Shown: positions 888 to 13,071 of the stretch, piece by piece
How positions within the stretch are numbered: the stretch's first letter is position 1
How the letters are laid out: each line of letters starts with the position of its first letter
NCBI GenBank assembly: GCA_903833215.1
Contig: CAILEM010000054.1
Span: forward strand, 1-64,000
Direction: 5' to 3'
DNA length: 64,000 bases
Source: an uncultured Armatimonadota bacterium
Lineage (GTDB): Bacteria > Armatimonadota > Fimbriimonadia > Fimbriimonadales > Fimbriimonadaceae
Translations under genes and position numbers: made by a program
Notes under the pieces: generated by a model
What the model was told of the DNA's origin: nothing
Database searches by the model: none
What the model saw: only the letters and a program-made list of their open reading frames with translations

Positions 888-2087
888 GTGTATTCTTTGC
901 GTGACCTGACCAAGGCGGCTGAACGCATGGAATCACCCTCGGAAAACTCGCTCGAACGGCTGTTGGCTGCTTTCTGTGGCCCAGACGAAGCCAAGGCGGC
1001 GCATGCTTTTGAGGAGCTATCCGTGCTCACGCGTCGGGGGCTGAACAGCTATTTGCGGGAACGTCTGCACTCCGAAGAGGCGCGCGAAGACGTGATTCAG
1101 GATGTCCTCCGCCGGATCTGGACGCGTCGACTGCAGTTTGAAAACCGCGGTGCAGCAGCGTGGTGGTCGCTCGTCAAGCTCGCGGCCGAACAGTGTCGCG
1201 TCGACCTCGTGCGCAAGGTCGGATCTGAAGTCACCTGGGATGAAGCAGAAGTTGGTGAGGTTCCAAGCGATGAGATGTCATCGGTCGACGCCGTACTCCA
1301 AGACCTCAATGACGCCAACGAACTCTACCGGGCTGCCGATGAGCTTTGGCTTGGATTCGACCCCTCGCTCTCGGACGCAGAGCGTGCACGACGCACCCTT
1401 GCCGCCCACCTATTCTTCAACCTGAATATGGAGTGGCACCAAGTCTCTGACATCCTCAATCGCGGAAAGCCGAGCGAAACCGTCAAACGCGGGCAGCTTG
1501 ATGCGTGGCTGGCCAATCCCGCCACCATCCGATCCCTCGCATTTCGCACACTGTATCTCGACAACGCGGGCCTGACCGCTTCCCTGCTCCAACTGCCGTC
1601 GGACGAACCAAGTGAACTCCAGAAAGTGCGCGTTCAAGCGATGACCCAAAGTCCAACCGGTGCCCCGCCCGGCAACTGGACCTGGACCGAGATTCGCGTC
1701 ATCCTTTGGCGGTATCGCGACGCCGAGCGCGTTGACCGAATCCTCGCTCGAGAGTCATGCGTGTACGACAAGCAAGAAATTCAGGCGATTTTCGATAGAT
1801 GTCTTGCCGAATTCCCGTTCCCAAAGATAATGGAGCGGCTATGCACAAGTCTGACCAAATGGCCCAAGGCTCGGCAGGAGCTTATGGAATCGGGCATCTG
1901 GCAGCGATTGGTTTTTGAGATTTACGCAAAGGACACCACCCAACATCGCGACATTCACGATCGGACCTCACCGGCGGCATCCTTGGCACCCTATTCCCTC
2001 ACCACGGGGATGCTGAATGTGTGGCTCTCCAGCGGTCGCATGTTTGCCAAGCTAGCATCTTACGTGCAAGCCCGGATGGCCAAATAA
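888..2087 (+). CDS. ECF-like sigma-70 family protein, first gene of CHAT triad
   Basis: Residues about 40-112 match sigma-70 region 2: a helical stretch with SEEAREDVIQDVLRRIWTRR, then AWWSLVKLAAEQCRVDLVRK, the usual core-binding and -10-recognition segment of extracytoplasmic-function sigma factors. The protein is 399 residues, about twice a normal ECF factor. The remaining roughly 280 residues are helical and unfamiliar; EWHQVSDILNRGKPSETVKR near 184-204 could act as a divergent region-4 helix-turn-helix. I use the GTG at 888; an ATG at 927 (MESPSENS) is an alternative and neither has a good ribosome site. Its stop overlaps the next start (TAATG), so sigma and middle protein are coupled. 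The likely role is transcription control by a sigma factor released or modified by the CHAT protease encoded downstream. Confidence 0.75.
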   Translation: MYSLRDLTKAAERMESPSENSLERLLAAFCGPDEAKAAHAFEELSVLTRRGLNSYLRERLHSEEAREDVIQDVLRRIWTRRLQFENRGAAAWWSLVKLAAEQCRVDLVRKVGSEVTWDEAEVGEVPSDEMSSVDAVLQDLNDANELYRAADELWLGFDPSLSDAERARRTLAAHLFFNLNMEWHQVSDILNRGKPSETVKRGQLDAWLANPATIRSLAFRTLYLDNAGLTASLLQLPSDEPSELQKVRVQAMTQSPTGAPPGNWTWTEIRVILWRYRDAERVDRILARESCVYDKQEIQAIFDRCLAEFPFPKIMERLCTSLTKWPKARQELMESGIWQRLVFEIYAKDTTQHRDIHDRTSPAASLAPYSLTTGMLNVWLSSGRMFAKLASYVQARMAK

Positions 2088-3175
2088 TGAAACCCGATCT
2101 CTCCCCTCAGGCAGTCGCATTGCTTCAACTTGCGGCGGGAAGTCTTCCTGAAACGGTCGTCCCCACCAAGCCGACGGTAAGGTCGCTGGTGCGATATCTC
2201 GCCAGCGCATTACCGCCTGCTGAAGCGTCAAGCGTCGAGATGGCGATCGTTCACGATCTTGGTGCGGGCGAACTCCTTGCCTCAACCTATCGCACGATCG
2301 AAGACCTGCGCAAACTTGCATGGAGTGACTTGCTTGCCCTGCAACCCACCGACCTGCTTGGCACCGAAATTCGAGCAGAGTGGATCGACTGCGTTCAGAA
2401 TTCTCTGCTGCCAGCAGAAAACCCGACAAGATCATTGGCTGGGATTCTTGAACATGCCCGAACCGGTTTTGATGCCTCGCGCATCGCTTCAGGAATCGTC
2501 GCTCATCTCAAAGAGGTCGGACTCGCTCCCCAAACCACCGCTTTTGCTGCCTCGGGCCGAGCATCGTTCAATCAGCCGAACATCGAGAGCCCTGAGCTCG
2601 AAGGCACTGATTTCGAATTCGATGCCGAAATCTGGTTCGACGGCACGTTGGCCCTTGAGCTACGATCCGCAAACGCCACTCATCTGGATAATCGCACCGT
2701 ATGGATCGCTTTCGAAGCGAACCGACAGTGGCTATGTCTGGGGTCTGCAGAATTTCGAAGTGGCTCGGCCATCCTCCAGTTGCCTGGTTTCGGAAAGCTC
2801 GTCGAGCTATCGGCAGGACAGCTTCCCGGGGGCATCTTTGCCTTACGGCTTGACGAGTGGCCGTCAGTCTGTAAGCATGGTGCTCTCGTTGTTCAGTCCG
2901 GGCCCGAACCGTTCGCCGAAATCGAGTCGATCCCAGTCATCGAAGATGGCAATGTCCAGATGGAAATCCGCCTCATTCCGTTCAGCACCGACCTTATTCG
3001 CTCGAAAGAGATCCAGATGTGGTTTGGCACCGGAGGTAGCGTTTGGCAACTGCTCGGAAGGTGGCCGATTCCCCGTGAGCCCTCTGCCAAGATGAGTCTT
3101 TCGTGTCCTTCACCAAAACCTGGCCCAGTTGGCATCGCTTTTCCTGGCGTTCTGAAACTTGCACTCCACGCTTAG
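2087..3175 (+). CDS. Middle protein of sigma-CHAT triad; anti-sigma-like N-terminus (putative)
   Basis: This 362-residue protein is of unknown family. The ATG at 2087 overlaps the sigma stop codon as TAATG and the CHAT gene starts 20 bases after its stop. Residues about 24-70 read SLVRYLASALPPAEASSVEM...GAGELLASTYRTIEDLRKL, which resembles the short helical N-terminal domain of many anti-sigma factors, but without zinc ligands and with no membrane segment. From about residue 170 the protein becomes beta-rich and acidic (ELEGTDFEFDAEIWFDGTLA), like an immunoglobulin-type module. Position suggests a sigma-binding partner or protease substrate, comparable to the middle components in Csx30-RpoE and CalpT-CalpS systems. 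That comparison is architectural only; I see no sequence similarity to those proteins. Confidence 0.6.
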   Translation: MKPDLSPQAVALLQLAAGSLPETVVPTKPTVRSLVRYLASALPPAEASSVEMAIVHDLGAGELLASTYRTIEDLRKLAWSDLLALQPTDLLGTEIRAEWIDCVQNSLLPAENPTRSLAGILEHARTGFDASRIASGIVAHLKEVGLAPQTTAFAASGRASFNQPNIESPELEGTDFEFDAEIWFDGTLALELRSANATHLDNRTVWIAFEANRQWLCLGSAEFRSGSAILQLPGFGKLVELSAGQLPGGIFALRLDEWPSVCKHGALVVQSGPEPFAEIESIPVIEDGNVQMEIRLIPFSTDLIRSKEIQMWFGTGGSVWQLLGRWPIPREPSAKMSLSCPSPKPGPVGIAFPGVLKLALHA

Positions 3176-3195
3176 GCTATAGTTTTCCGTAAGCT

Positions 3196-6100
3196 ATGGC
3201 TGGCGGAAACAGGGGTGGGGCAATACAGTTCGCCGACCTGCGACTGCGTCTTCAGGCAGTCAGCGGAGGGGTTCAAGGCACCCTCACGCGTGCCTCCGAT
3301 AACCTAACTCTCGCGGACGAATTCGCCCCAACATCCATCCAGCAGCTTCGGACATCAGCAAAGGCCGTTCTCGCCGGTGCTGCCACCGACCGAGCTCAGA
3401 TGTCGCGGGTAGGAACCGAACTCGGTAACGTCGCGTTCTCTGGCAAAGTTGGGGAGGCCTTGCTTCACGAAGCCAGCCGACACCAGGTTCGCATCCGAAT
3501 ATCCGGCGACGCGGAGTTGAATGATATTCCTTGGGAAATGTCGATCCTCGCTGGATTAGGGACCTCCAACGATGGGTATCTCGCCCTCTGTGGGCGGGTG
3601 AGCCTCACATGGGATGTCGAGGCCGCAAGTGAGGAAACGAGACGTCCCTCTGAAAACACGAGTGTCCTTGTCGCTTGGGCCAATCCCGGATCCGCGCAAT
3701 ACCCTCCTTTGCATTTCGCCGAGAAGGAAGCCGCTTCCGTGATTCGAGCCCTGAAAAGCGCCGAATGTCGCTCACTTCAAGTCGACGAACTTCCGTTCGC
3801 AACCATCGCCGGATTAATGCGGAGTCTGAAAGAACGACGACCCGATGTTCTCCACTTCATTGGCCACGGGGACTTGGCGCCATCGGGCGGACTCATCGTG
3901 CTCGAAGGTGGTCTACCCGCGACGGACTCCATTCTCTATGCCGAAGATTTGGCGAAGGCGGTGGTTGAAGCAGGGACGACACTCGCCGTCCTTTCCGGAT
4001 GCCTCACCAGCGGTTCTCCACAGGCGATTGGCAATCAGCTCGCCAAAGCGGGCGTTCCCGCAGTCTTGGCGATGTCCGTCCCGATTCAAGATGCGGCCAC
4101 CCACCAATTTGCCCGCGCGATGTACAGTTCCCTCGCCGAAGGCACCCAACTCGATGAGGCGGTGTTCGAGGGCCGATGTGCCATCTATGGGATGGGCAGC
4201 GATTGGGCCGCACCCCAGTTGATGATCTCTGGCTCAAAGCCTCTGATCCTCACCGAACTCGATGAGAACACTTTCAAGTGGCAAGCATCGGAACGAAAGA
4301 CGAATCTCGGCTACGACGATCGACCCTTTATCGGAAGAATGAAGGAACGTGCCGACCTTCGCGCTAAGATTCGCGACCAGGGCCAACGCCTCGTTACGAT
4401 CACCGGTCCGGGTGGAATGGGAAAGACGCGCCTTTCCAAGCAGGTTGCCGCCGAATTGCTTGGGGAGTTTCCCGATGGCGTTTGGTTCGTCGATTGCGAG
4501 GCCCTCATTACGGATCAGGAACTCACAGCGGGCATCGCAGCGGCATTGCCTTTTGCAACCGGTGCCGATTCGCTCAAGGCGGTTCAGGATTCACTCGTTC
4601 GGCGTCGAACGTTGATTGTTCTCGACTGTTTCGAGAATTCCATCGCTCTCGGTGGACTCGTCGAGTCGCTGCTTCAAAGTGCGCCCAACCTCCACGTTCT
4701 GCTCACAAGTCGTATTGTCCTCGGGCTTCCCCGCGAGCATGAATACCCGCTTCCACCGATGTCGACCACCGACAAGGGCGGGGCAAGTGCCGACAGCATC
4801 ACGTTGTTTGCCGAGGCCGCATCCCATGCCATCAGCGACTTTGAGGTCACGGCGAAGAACCGCAAGTTGCTCCGCGAATTGTGCGGCAGTTTGGAAGGTG
4901 TTCCCCTCGCGATTGTCTTGGCCGCCGGCCGACTGCGTCACATGAGCCTCGCCGAACTCCTGGAGCAAGTTCGCACCCAACCCATCGCCATTCTTCGCCG
5001 GCGCACGGGAGGTATCGATCGCCACTCAAATATCGAGGCGGTCGTCGATGCATCCTTTAGCCTGCTGCCAAGGGCAGAGCGCCAAATGCTCTGCAAGCTT
5101 GGGCTCTTCTACGGAAGCTTTACCCTCGCCGATGCCTCCGCCGTCTGTGGCATCTCGGAGGCGGAGCAGATACTGTGGATCTCCGACCTACGCGACCATT
5201 CGCTGGTACACATCCTTCGCGACGAGGTCCGAACTCGCTACAAGCTTCTCGATACCGTCCGGGACTACATCAGTCGGCTAACATTCGAGGGCCCTTTGGG
5301 GGTCGAGATAGAAGCATGTCGGAGAAGGCATGCAGAGCACTACGCAGCGCTGGCTATCGAAATCGGTCGACTGATGGCTGAAGGCCGTTGGTCCAGCGGG
5401 ACGGCGTCGCTGATGCAAGATATCGGTAACCTCCGCGCGGCAATGCAAACGGCGGTCCATCTCAAGCGAGATGACCTAATCGCTGCCATGACCGGCGGTC
5501 TTGCTCGACGCTTCTTCGAGGCTGGATTACTCACCGATTTTCGAATGCTTGCCGATGCAGGATATGAAACCGCGGAACGCACGGGAGACCCTACCCTCCG
5601 CATCCAGCTTCTTGGCCTAGAAGGGGCCCTGGCGTCGCGTCAGGGAGAAGAGGAGCGATGCGAGCAGCTATGGCTTGAGCGTGTTGCTCTCAGTCGAGAG
5701 CAGGGTGACATCGCACACTGCGCTGACGCCCTTATTGACCTTGCGTGGCAAGCCTTTGAAAACAACGACCCGACCAAGAGTCGCCTCCGCTTGATTGAGG
5801 CATTGCGACTCGCCAGGAGCGTGAAAGACCCCACTTTCATCGCCACCGCCAAAATCGTCCAGGCGCGAATCGCCTTCGCGTCCAAGAACCTGCGCCTCGC
5901 GCGGGTGCGAAATTTGCAGGCAGAAAAACTGCTCGCGCAATGTGCGGATCGAAATGGCTCCCTATTTGTTTGTCAATTGCTGAGCATGTCCAGCCGGGAA
6001 CTGGGCGACATCGACCGAAGCATCGACTTCACGTTGAAGCTACTCCGGCTCAGCATCGAGCGAAATCAGGTGATTCACGCGGGTTGGTCTTTGCTAGAGC

Positions 6101-6318
6101 TTGGCCCGATCTACGAGCAAACCAACCAACTGGAGAATGCCGCGCGATGCTACTTGGGCGCGATGAAGGTGCATGCCGAGTACGCGACCCGTCACCGCAC
6201 CCGCGCGGCGACGGCATTTGCCCAATTTCGAAAGCGGCAACCCGGCGGCGTTGTCACGTCAACGATCAATGCCCTACGCAATCATACGTGGACAGAGATC
6301 GTTGACGGCCTCTCGTAG
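3196..6318 (+). CDS. CHAT protease - STAND NTPase - TPR regulator
   Basis: This 1040-residue cytoplasmic protein has three parts. Residues about 90-350 form a CHAT (caspase-like) domain with its dyad visible: His224 in DVLHFIGHGDL and Cys269 in LAVLSGCLTSG. Residues about 370-690 form a STAND/AP-ATPase module of the COG3903 type, with P-loop GPGGMGKTR (Lys410), Walker B TLIVLDCFEN (Asp477), sensor LLTSR and a GLPL-like EGVPLAIVLAAG, followed by a winged-helix segment and KLLDTVRDYI. Residues about 700-1040 are TPR-like helical repeats. By family knowledge the TPR end senses a ligand, the NTPase oligomerises and the CHAT domain cuts a partner. The adjacent sigma factor and middle protein are the obvious candidate targets. 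All catalytic motifs look intact. Confidence 0.9.
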   Translation: MAGGNRGGAIQFADLRLRLQAVSGGVQGTLTRASDNLTLADEFAPTSIQQLRTSAKAVLAGAATDRAQMSRVGTELGNVAFSGKVGEALLHEASRHQVRIRISGDAELNDIPWEMSILAGLGTSNDGYLALCGRVSLTWDVEAASEETRRPSENTSVLVAWANPGSAQYPPLHFAEKEAASVIRALKSAECRSLQVDELPFATIAGLMRSLKERRPDVLHFIGHGDLAPSGGLIVLEGGLPATDSILYAEDLAKAVVEAGTTLAVLSGCLTSGSPQAIGNQLAKAGVPAVLAMSVPIQDAATHQFARAMYSSLAEGTQLDEAVFEGRCAIYGMGSDWAAPQLMISGSKPLILTELDENTFKWQASERKTNLGYDDRPFIGRMKERADLRAKIRDQGQRLVTITGPGGMGKTRLSKQVAAELLGEFPDGVWFVDCEALITDQELTAGIAAALPFATGADSLKAVQDSLVRRRTLIVLDCFENSIALGGLVESLLQSAPNLHVLLTSRIVLGLPREHEYPLPPMSTTDKGGASADSITLFAEAASHAISDFEVTAKNRKLLRELCGSLEGVPLAIVLAAGRLRHMSLAELLEQVRTQPIAILRRRTGGIDRHSNIEAVVDASFSLLPRAERQMLCKLGLFYGSFTLADASAVCGISEAEQILWISDLRDHSLVHILRDEVRTRYKLLDTVRDYISRLTFEGPLGVEIEACRRRHAEHYAALAIEIGRLMAEGRWSSGTASLMQDIGNLRAAMQTAVHLKRDDLIAAMTGGLARRFFEAGLLTDFRMLADAGYETAERTGDPTLRIQLLGLEGALASRQGEEERCEQLWLERVALSREQGDIAHCADALIDLAWQAFENNDPTKSRLRLIEALRLARSVKDPTFIATAKIVQARIAFASKNLRLARVRNLQAEKLLAQCADRNGSLFVCQLLSMSSRELGDIDRSIDFTLKLLRLSIERNQVIHAGWSLLELGPIYEQTNQLENAARCYLGAMKVHAEYATRHRTRAATAFAQFRKRQPGGVVTSTINALRNHTWTEIVDGLS

Positions 6319-6321
6319 GGC

Positions 6322-7137
6322 TTAGGGTCCCGGAGGAAGAGGCGCGTAAGCCTTGATGACAAACGTATCCAAATAGAACGTGTTCTGGATCAACGTTCCC
6401 GCGTTCGCGTTGCATGCATCGACCGCTGTCGTAGGAGAAGATGTGCTTGGAGCGAGTGTATGCACCTGAGTGGGGCGAGAACCGTGATAAAGGATGTTCA
6501 GGTGTGGTGCGCTGAGCAAAGACTTTGATGCGTGGTCGGAACCTGGAAGCTTGAACTTGATCTTCTTCAGTCCCGACTTGTTGCCGAGCTTGTCGAGCAA
6601 ATGAAGGTCGAGCTTCTCGTAAAGTGCACAGAGCCAATCCTGATTTTCGATCGCGGCACACATCAGGGCAATCTTCAAGTCAACGTCGGTACCAAGCGGA
6701 AGGTGGACAAAACCACGCTCGCCAGCATGAGCAATCACGAACTCAGGGTTCAAGGCAAGAATCTTTTTCTCAACGGCATCAAAGTCGATCCCACTTTTGA
6801 AGTTAAATCTTCCACCCGGAGTCATCATCCGAATGGAGATATAACCCGTCGAGTCGATGCCATCCACAACATAGGTTGCAGCTTGGTTGGCATTGAGTCC
6901 CACCGCTGTGGAGACCTCCATCGAGATCATAAAGTTATCTGAGAGTCGAGCCGGTCGTGGCTTTTCTCCAGCCGCAGGAACCACTTGGATCTTTCCAACC
7001 CATGCAAATGGGTCGGTAATGAGGTCGATTAGGTCCCGTGGGGAGCGCGTTTCATGCAGCCAAACCCGATCGTCATCCGCAAGCGGAATAAAGGTCGTGT
7101 TGCTCGCATTCTTGCCGTTGATTTCCAAATTGCTCAT
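6322..7137 (-). CDS. Hypothetical protein convergent with the CHAT gene
   Basis: This 271-residue protein has no signal peptide or membrane segment. I do not recognise a family. It opens MSNLEINGKNASNTTFIPLADDDRVWLHETRSPRD, has a mixed alpha/beta middle, and ends in a Ser/Thr/Pro-rich tail (HTLAPSTSSPTTAVDA). Its stop lies only 4 bases from the stop of the CHAT-STAND gene, facing it, so the two may share a 3' region. It could belong to the same accessory island (substrate, effector or ligand-related protein) or be unrelated; nothing in its sequence decides this. Confidence 0.6.
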   Translation of the reverse strand: MSNLEINGKNASNTTFIPLADDDRVWLHETRSPRDLIDLITDPFAWVGKIQVVPAAGEKPRPARLSDNFMISMEVSTAVGLNANQAATYVVDGIDSTGYISIRMMTPGGRFNFKSGIDFDAVEKKILALNPEFVIAHAGERGFVHLPLGTDVDLKIALMCAAIENQDWLCALYEKLDLHLLDKLGNKSGLKKIKFKLPGSDHASKSLLSAPHLNILYHGSRPTQVHTLAPSTSSPTTAVDACNANAGTLIQNTFYLDTFVIKAYAPLPPGP

Positions 7138-12562: not shown

Positions 12563-12642
12563 GAGAGTGGTAATCCGGGGCCGCCGGACAAACGAACCGA
12601 TAACGTCATCGCGCCAACCCAATCGAAACAACGGGCCACGCC

Positions 12643-12925
12643 GGTTAGCCAAAGGCTATCCTCTCCAAAGAGCGAAGGCATGGGTCCGCGAGGACCCTTG
12701 CCTGGTACTTCGTAAGACCAAACCCGCCGACAATACGGTACAAATCCGGTTAGCCAAAGGCTATCCTCTCCAAAGAGCGAAGGCATGGGTCCGCGAGGAC
12801 CCTTGCCTGGTACTTCGTAAGACCAAACCCGCCGACAATACGGTACAAATCCGGTTTGCCAACGGCAATCCTCTCCAAAAAGCGAAGGCATGGGGCCCCG
12901 AGGACCCTTGCCTGGTATTCCAGGT
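12643..12925. repeat. Tandem 105-bp repeat with internal palindrome (2.7 copies)
   Basis: Units start at 12643, 12748 and 12853, exactly 105 bases apart. The first two are essentially identical; the third has diverged and stops after about 70 bases. Each unit holds a small AGCC-AAA-GGCT stem and a strong stem formed by GGCATGGGTCC and GGACCCTTGCC around a GCGA loop. Open reading frames crossing this block come from the periodicity, which is a multiple of three. Together with the neighbouring hairpin and the inverted copy, it fills an intergenic region of about 830 bases with no gene that I can support. Confidence 0.9.
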
Positions 12926-13071
12926 TCGCAATCGTTCCTTCCCTGAAAGGGATGCGTCCGGAAACGCTCGGATACATCCCAATTTTTGCATAACCGCGGT
13001 GACAGCCCACGTGAGATTCAACCGAACGGATGGAGACGGAACACCTTCGGCGTACGGGCCGGTACGCGGGC

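Follow-up and report, generated by a model that had tools for sequence, protein, structure and literature searches.

A conserved operon of sigma factor, CHAT protease and STAND NTPase genes in Armatimonadota and its possible role as a protease-gated sigma switch

The window, by which we mean the whole stretch of 64,000 nucleotides analysed here, is the start of one contig from the 6.2 Mb genome of an uncultured Armatimonadota bacterium. Among named genomes, the closest to it are MAGs of Armatimonadetes and Fimbriimonas. Near its beginning lie three consecutive genes on the plus strand, and our analysis confirmed both the genes and the coordinates given for them in an earlier, sequence-only reading of this DNA. 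The first (888-2087), which opens with a GTG codon, encodes a sigma factor with an ECF region 2 and sigma4-like units; translation may really begin at the in-frame ATG at 927. The second (2087-3175) encodes a predicted zinc-less anti-sigma, here called the middle protein, and its start codon has one base in common with the sigma stop codon (...AAATAATG...). After a gap of 20 bases comes the third gene (3196-6318), which encodes a CHAT protease fused to a STAND NTPase and TPR repeats, the CHAT domain spanning 3412-4191 by Pfam. A fourth gene (6322-7137, minus strand) converges on the third and encodes a 271-residue protein without a Pfam family. The locus adjoins nuo genes, and its neighbours are kept at the same site in genome G004. 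Further along the window we also observed a 105-base unit in three tandem copies (12641-12955). The sequence-only reading had the three genes right, but overlooked the fourth gene as well as the CHAT-less architecture and the sister operon described below.

The operon is conserved far beyond chance, being kept by several families of Armatimonadota. A full-length profile search found the long sigma factor in 25 of 291 Armatimonadota genomes, from five families, and the middle protein was present in 20 of the 291, all within those 25. The middle gene is therefore carried by 20/25 sigma-bearing genomes and by 0/266 sigma-free genomes (Fisher p=1e-26, shared ancestry ignored), and the linkage of the three genes anticipated for the phylum is borne out. 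The profile used for the sigma genome scan was built from nine sigmas; one built from all 17 was too divergent. Co-occurrence outside Armatimonadota, also envisaged earlier, was not found: the sole genome-wide scan, in which a single short motif was sought in 85,000 species genomes, gave Armatimonadota matches only, and resting on that one motif it may have missed distant relatives elsewhere. A plasmid collection contained no match to the sigma or the middle protein, and a phage collection none to the sigma.

Two architectures can be distinguished. Type A consists of the sigma, middle and CHAT-STAND-TPR genes, mostly as an operon, and the set is kept while its order varies, with a divergent arrangement at L034, a convergent one at L041 and a split over two loci in G007 and in G025. 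In type B (L038, L039, L042, L043, L046, L099 and L106) the sigma gene, which retains its full-length extension, is followed by a gene for a STAND-TPR protein of 650-784 residues, with neither a CHAT domain nor a middle gene; all five sigma-bearing genomes that lack the middle gene have CHAT-less STAND proteins adjoining the sigma. A profile of the N-terminal domain of type A middle proteins finds the N-termini of type B STAND proteins (L043, E=7e-7; L038, 6e-4; L039, 0.01), and type B STANDs rank first, second and fourth among the ORFs that are not middle proteins. The two gave 94% (E=1.2e-7) in profile-profile comparison, where no other segment compared exceeded 7%. In L042, L046, L099 and L106 the domain is either weak or has been lost. 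The sigma tree, in which deep branches are weak, needs just one or two changes between the types, so that CHAT and the middle gene would have been lost together in few events.

Other variants of the operon were also seen. In families f13 and f19 the last gene instead encodes a secreted, probably beta-barrel protein, as judged from its sequence (L094:4300-5805, L096:4230-5645, L097:5193-6617 and L104:3275-4495, with weaker candidates at L098, L102 and L103). A small conserved gene lies divergent from the sigma in other families (L094:11095-11688, L096:11598-12071, L098:8050-8526, L095:1445-2044 and L105:723-1199).

The sigma factor carries a true ECF region 2 (residues 19-119). Taken alone, the window protein falls short of the Pfam cut-off for Sigma-70 region 2 (E=0.002), but 12 of the 17 family members match Sigma70_r2, the best at 5e-11. 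The family profile finds ECF sigmas in the PDB with E down to 1.6e-7, region 2 resembles that of ECF sigmas from the same genomes (profile-profile 95.7%), and the AlphaFold2 model, which is all-helical and confident (pLDDT 87.5), aligns with SigW with Z=12.2 over 94 residues. Beyond region 2 are a sigma4-like unit (residues ~130-225), a helical spacer and a second sigma4-like unit (~322-399). The first sits in the place expected of region 4, although its profile match to region 4 is not significant (4.8%, E=0.008). The longer structural alignments with ECF sigmas extend to about residue 220 with very high rmsd, which we read as different domain placement. The second unit is a duplicate of the first (profile-profile 92%, E=7e-7). 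The earlier description of a double-length ECF sigma thus holds for the length, while the additional part is a duplicated sigma4-like unit rather than any known kind of regulatory tail. Foldseek searches with the sigma and middle protein models gave no convincing whole-chain match.

The model of the middle protein (pLDDT 79) shows a helical N-domain (residues 1-146), a disordered linker with pLDDT below 50 (residues 145-161, encoded at 2519-2569 on the plus strand) and two Ig/FnIII-like sandwiches (~172-257 and ~272-362). Folds of this type were the sole matches for the C-terminal half, at Z of about 6, which is a common level. Searches of Pfam, PDB and NCBIfam returned no family. The N-domain has no zinc Cys/His motif, with no cysteine before residue 102, and its comparison with zinc anti-sigma domains falls in the right register without being significant (2.5%, E=0.018). 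We predict that the middle protein is likely to be a zinc-less anti-sigma, in agreement with the sequence-only reading. As type B fuses the N-domain to the STAND protein, this domain is likely the sigma-binding part, and CHAT would act on the separate middle protein. Two lone homologues of the middle protein were observed (L151:5419-6492 in G012 and L152:1628-2746 in G019), each between an aminotransferase gene on one side and a Mur-ligase-type gene on the other, with neither sigma nor CHAT adjoining.

Within the linker block of the alignment all 19 middle proteins have an arginine with Gly, Ser, Ala or Thr directly after it, the arginine being Arg158 in the window protein (codon 2558-2560). 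The other 41-column blocks have an arginine plus a small residue in at most 12/19 proteins, save those overlapping the linker. The block was picked after the alignment had been viewed, and shuffling within blocks gave no better than p=0.013, as the linkers are Arg-rich; by itself the 19/19 count is modest evidence. We propose Arg158 as a candidate CHAT cut site mainly because two different CHAT-linked anti-sigma families have the same site. The second family comes from a sister operon in the same genome (L048:3115-8094, G000:C116), which encodes an ECF sigma, a short zinc-motif anti-sigma, a TPR-CHAT protein and a subtilase; the zinc motif was read from the sequence, without a Pfam match, and the subtilase was likewise named from its sequence. 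Nine or more further loci in the order had matches to all four genes. Twelve aligned anti-sigmas of this family have, just before the C-terminal beta part, an arginine with a small residue after it, and two of the twelve (L122 and L128) are without the zinc cysteines. The sister operon is widespread in the order (L121-L139).

Pfam assigns the third protein a CHAT domain (E=1.3e-29), an NB-ARC/STAND domain (E=1.9e-7) and weak TPR repeats. Both the CHAT and the STAND part are intact, with His224, Cys269 and Lys410 exactly at the positions first reported, and the CHAT histidine and cysteine are kept in 21/21 type A proteins inspected, the window protein among them. The third gene was also considered as a plasmid-borne module and this was rejected, the best matches covering the STAND-TPR half only. 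Elsewhere, the CHAT-STAND-TPR gene at L037:6379-9513 (G019) is split into three frames, by sequencing error or decay, and L109:7488-11144 (G007) encodes one protein that joins an anti-sigma-like N-terminus to a probable membrane helix, repeats and a CHAT domain whose frame is apparently broken.

Searches of Pfam and PDB with the fourth protein found no family, and Thr97, His145, Cys242, Lys262 and Tyr264 are invariant in 16 homologues. Genes for these homologues adjoin type A, type B and split loci. At E<1e-12, a threshold set after the list had been viewed, the gene is present in 14/15 sigma-bearing genomes of the family and in 0/70 of its other genomes (Fisher 4e-15, ancestry ignored); at E<0.001 three sigma-free genomes match too. 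Two of these three, G106 and G068, have the homologue next to a gene for a cyclase-STAND-TPR protein, and G035 has the same pairing at an additional site; we conclude from this that the fourth gene follows the STAND sensor and not the sigma. These proteins carry a class III cyclase at the N-terminus of STAND-TPR (L160:3394-7164, L161:6167-10071 and L163:3141-6949), called by Pfam Guanylate_cyc in L160 (E=1e-7) and by sequence likeness in the other two, and the family sigma does not adjoin their genes. Several genomes have copies of the fourth gene without a STAND neighbour (L156-L159 and L164). A search for a promoter motif common to the sigma and fourth genes at 13 loci gave nothing convincing above shuffled controls; one locus of the 13 reached p=0.05, and its two upstream regions overlap.

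Taken together, we think it probable that the locus encodes a protease-gated sigma switch, in which CHAT severs the linker of the middle protein and so frees the sigma factor. In the resting state the middle protein would hold the sigma by its helical N-domain. A cytoplasmic signal would be received by the STAND-TPR part together with the fourth protein, and a nucleotide-driven rearrangement, as suggested by the family, would turn on the fused CHAT protease. The protease would then cut the disordered linker, most likely after Arg158, so that the Ig-like domains come away from the sigma-binding N-domain, after which the N-domain would be lost and the sigma freed. In the CHAT-less relatives, where the N-domain is fused to STAND, release would come about by conformational change instead of cutting.

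The sequence-only reading had allowed for two substrates, the middle protein or the C-terminal extension of the sigma. Cutting of the extension would turn a pro-sigma into an active sigma with the middle protein as an adaptor, as might be expected of a sigma of twice the normal length with a conserved extension. However, the CHAT-less relatives lack both CHAT and the middle gene and still have the extension at full length, which makes the middle protein the likely substrate, and the sigma4-like units of the extension resemble promoter-recognition parts rather than a removable tail; we consider cutting of the sigma improbable. The CHAT-less systems bear on another explanation, that CHAT is incidental or has other targets, such as cell death or wide proteolysis, and that STAND-TPR controls the sigma/middle complex allosterically. 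These systems retain sigma and STAND, and allostery presumably operates in them. Against this, CHAT and the middle gene come and go together and the catalytic residues are kept in every type A protein inspected, and we regard purely allosteric control as unlikely.

Defence systems often contain CHAT and STAND proteins, and the locus could serve in phage defence, reprogramming transcription or killing the cell on infection; over the CHAT domain PADLOC gives a weak match to SAVED-CHAT, which points the same way. The third protein has no SAVED domain, however, the nuo neighbourhood is conserved in G004, and the plasmid and phage collections gave no sigma match. The phage cue raised in the sequence-only reading found no support in the part examined, which has no defence-island context, while its view that CRISPR is not involved agrees with the first 20 kb, which contain no CRISPR-like array. 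A role in defence seems very unlikely to us.

A protease-gated switch could itself be one version of a modular receptor, an idea we offer tentatively, in which the sensor, made up of STAND-TPR and the fourth protein, stays constant while the output is exchanged: a CHAT protease that cuts an anti-sigma, a fused anti-sigma domain or a class III nucleotide cyclase. If so, an NLR-like receptor with a fused anti-sigma domain would hold a sigma factor directly. The natural pair of CHAT-containing and CHAT-less systems points to the sigma-binding domain, the fourth protein may lead to the signal sensed by STAND receptors, and with a cut site and domain boundaries predicted, the idea can be tested directly on purified proteins.

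Several known systems resemble the one proposed here. The CalpL-CalpT-CalpS system of type III CRISPR reportedly also places sigma release under protease control, using a Lon protease and a SAVED cyclic-nucleotide sensor; Pfam finds neither a Lon nor a SAVED domain in the window system. ECF54, as cited in PMC8999054, has genomic contexts with CHAT, subtilase and carboxypeptidase genes and was described as being without an anti-sigma. The likeness is an ECF sigma linked to CHAT, with a subtilase too in the sister operon, whereas at the window locus the sigma is extended, a middle protein is present and the ORF list shows no subtilase among the neighbours of the CHAT gene. Computationally predicted caspase/EACC2 neighbourhoods (PMC8195603) combine a caspase-like peptidase, variable sensor domains, an ECF sigma and, as a middle protein, DUF1822. 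Their peptidase arrangement differs, and 19 of our middle proteins gave no Pfam match to DUF1822 at E<=5, with remote homology possible. The nearest experimental precedent is Csx29-Csx30-sigma, where Csx29, a CHAT protease, cleaves Csx30 and thereby lifts the inhibition of a sigma factor (PMC10028731). Unlike in type III-E, no CRISPR effector was seen at the window locus; the window sigma reaches 18 bits with the model of the type III-E sigma family, for which the cut-off is 100, and the source genome has no CASP-type sigma over the cut-off. In the window system the protease forms one protein with a STAND NTPase and TPR repeats and the sigma is longer than CASP-sigma, but both systems would share a CHAT protease, an intermediate protein that probably inhibits an ECF sigma here, and the same order of logic. 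If our interpretation is right, CHAT control of sigma factors outside CRISPR would be an ordinary signalling design.
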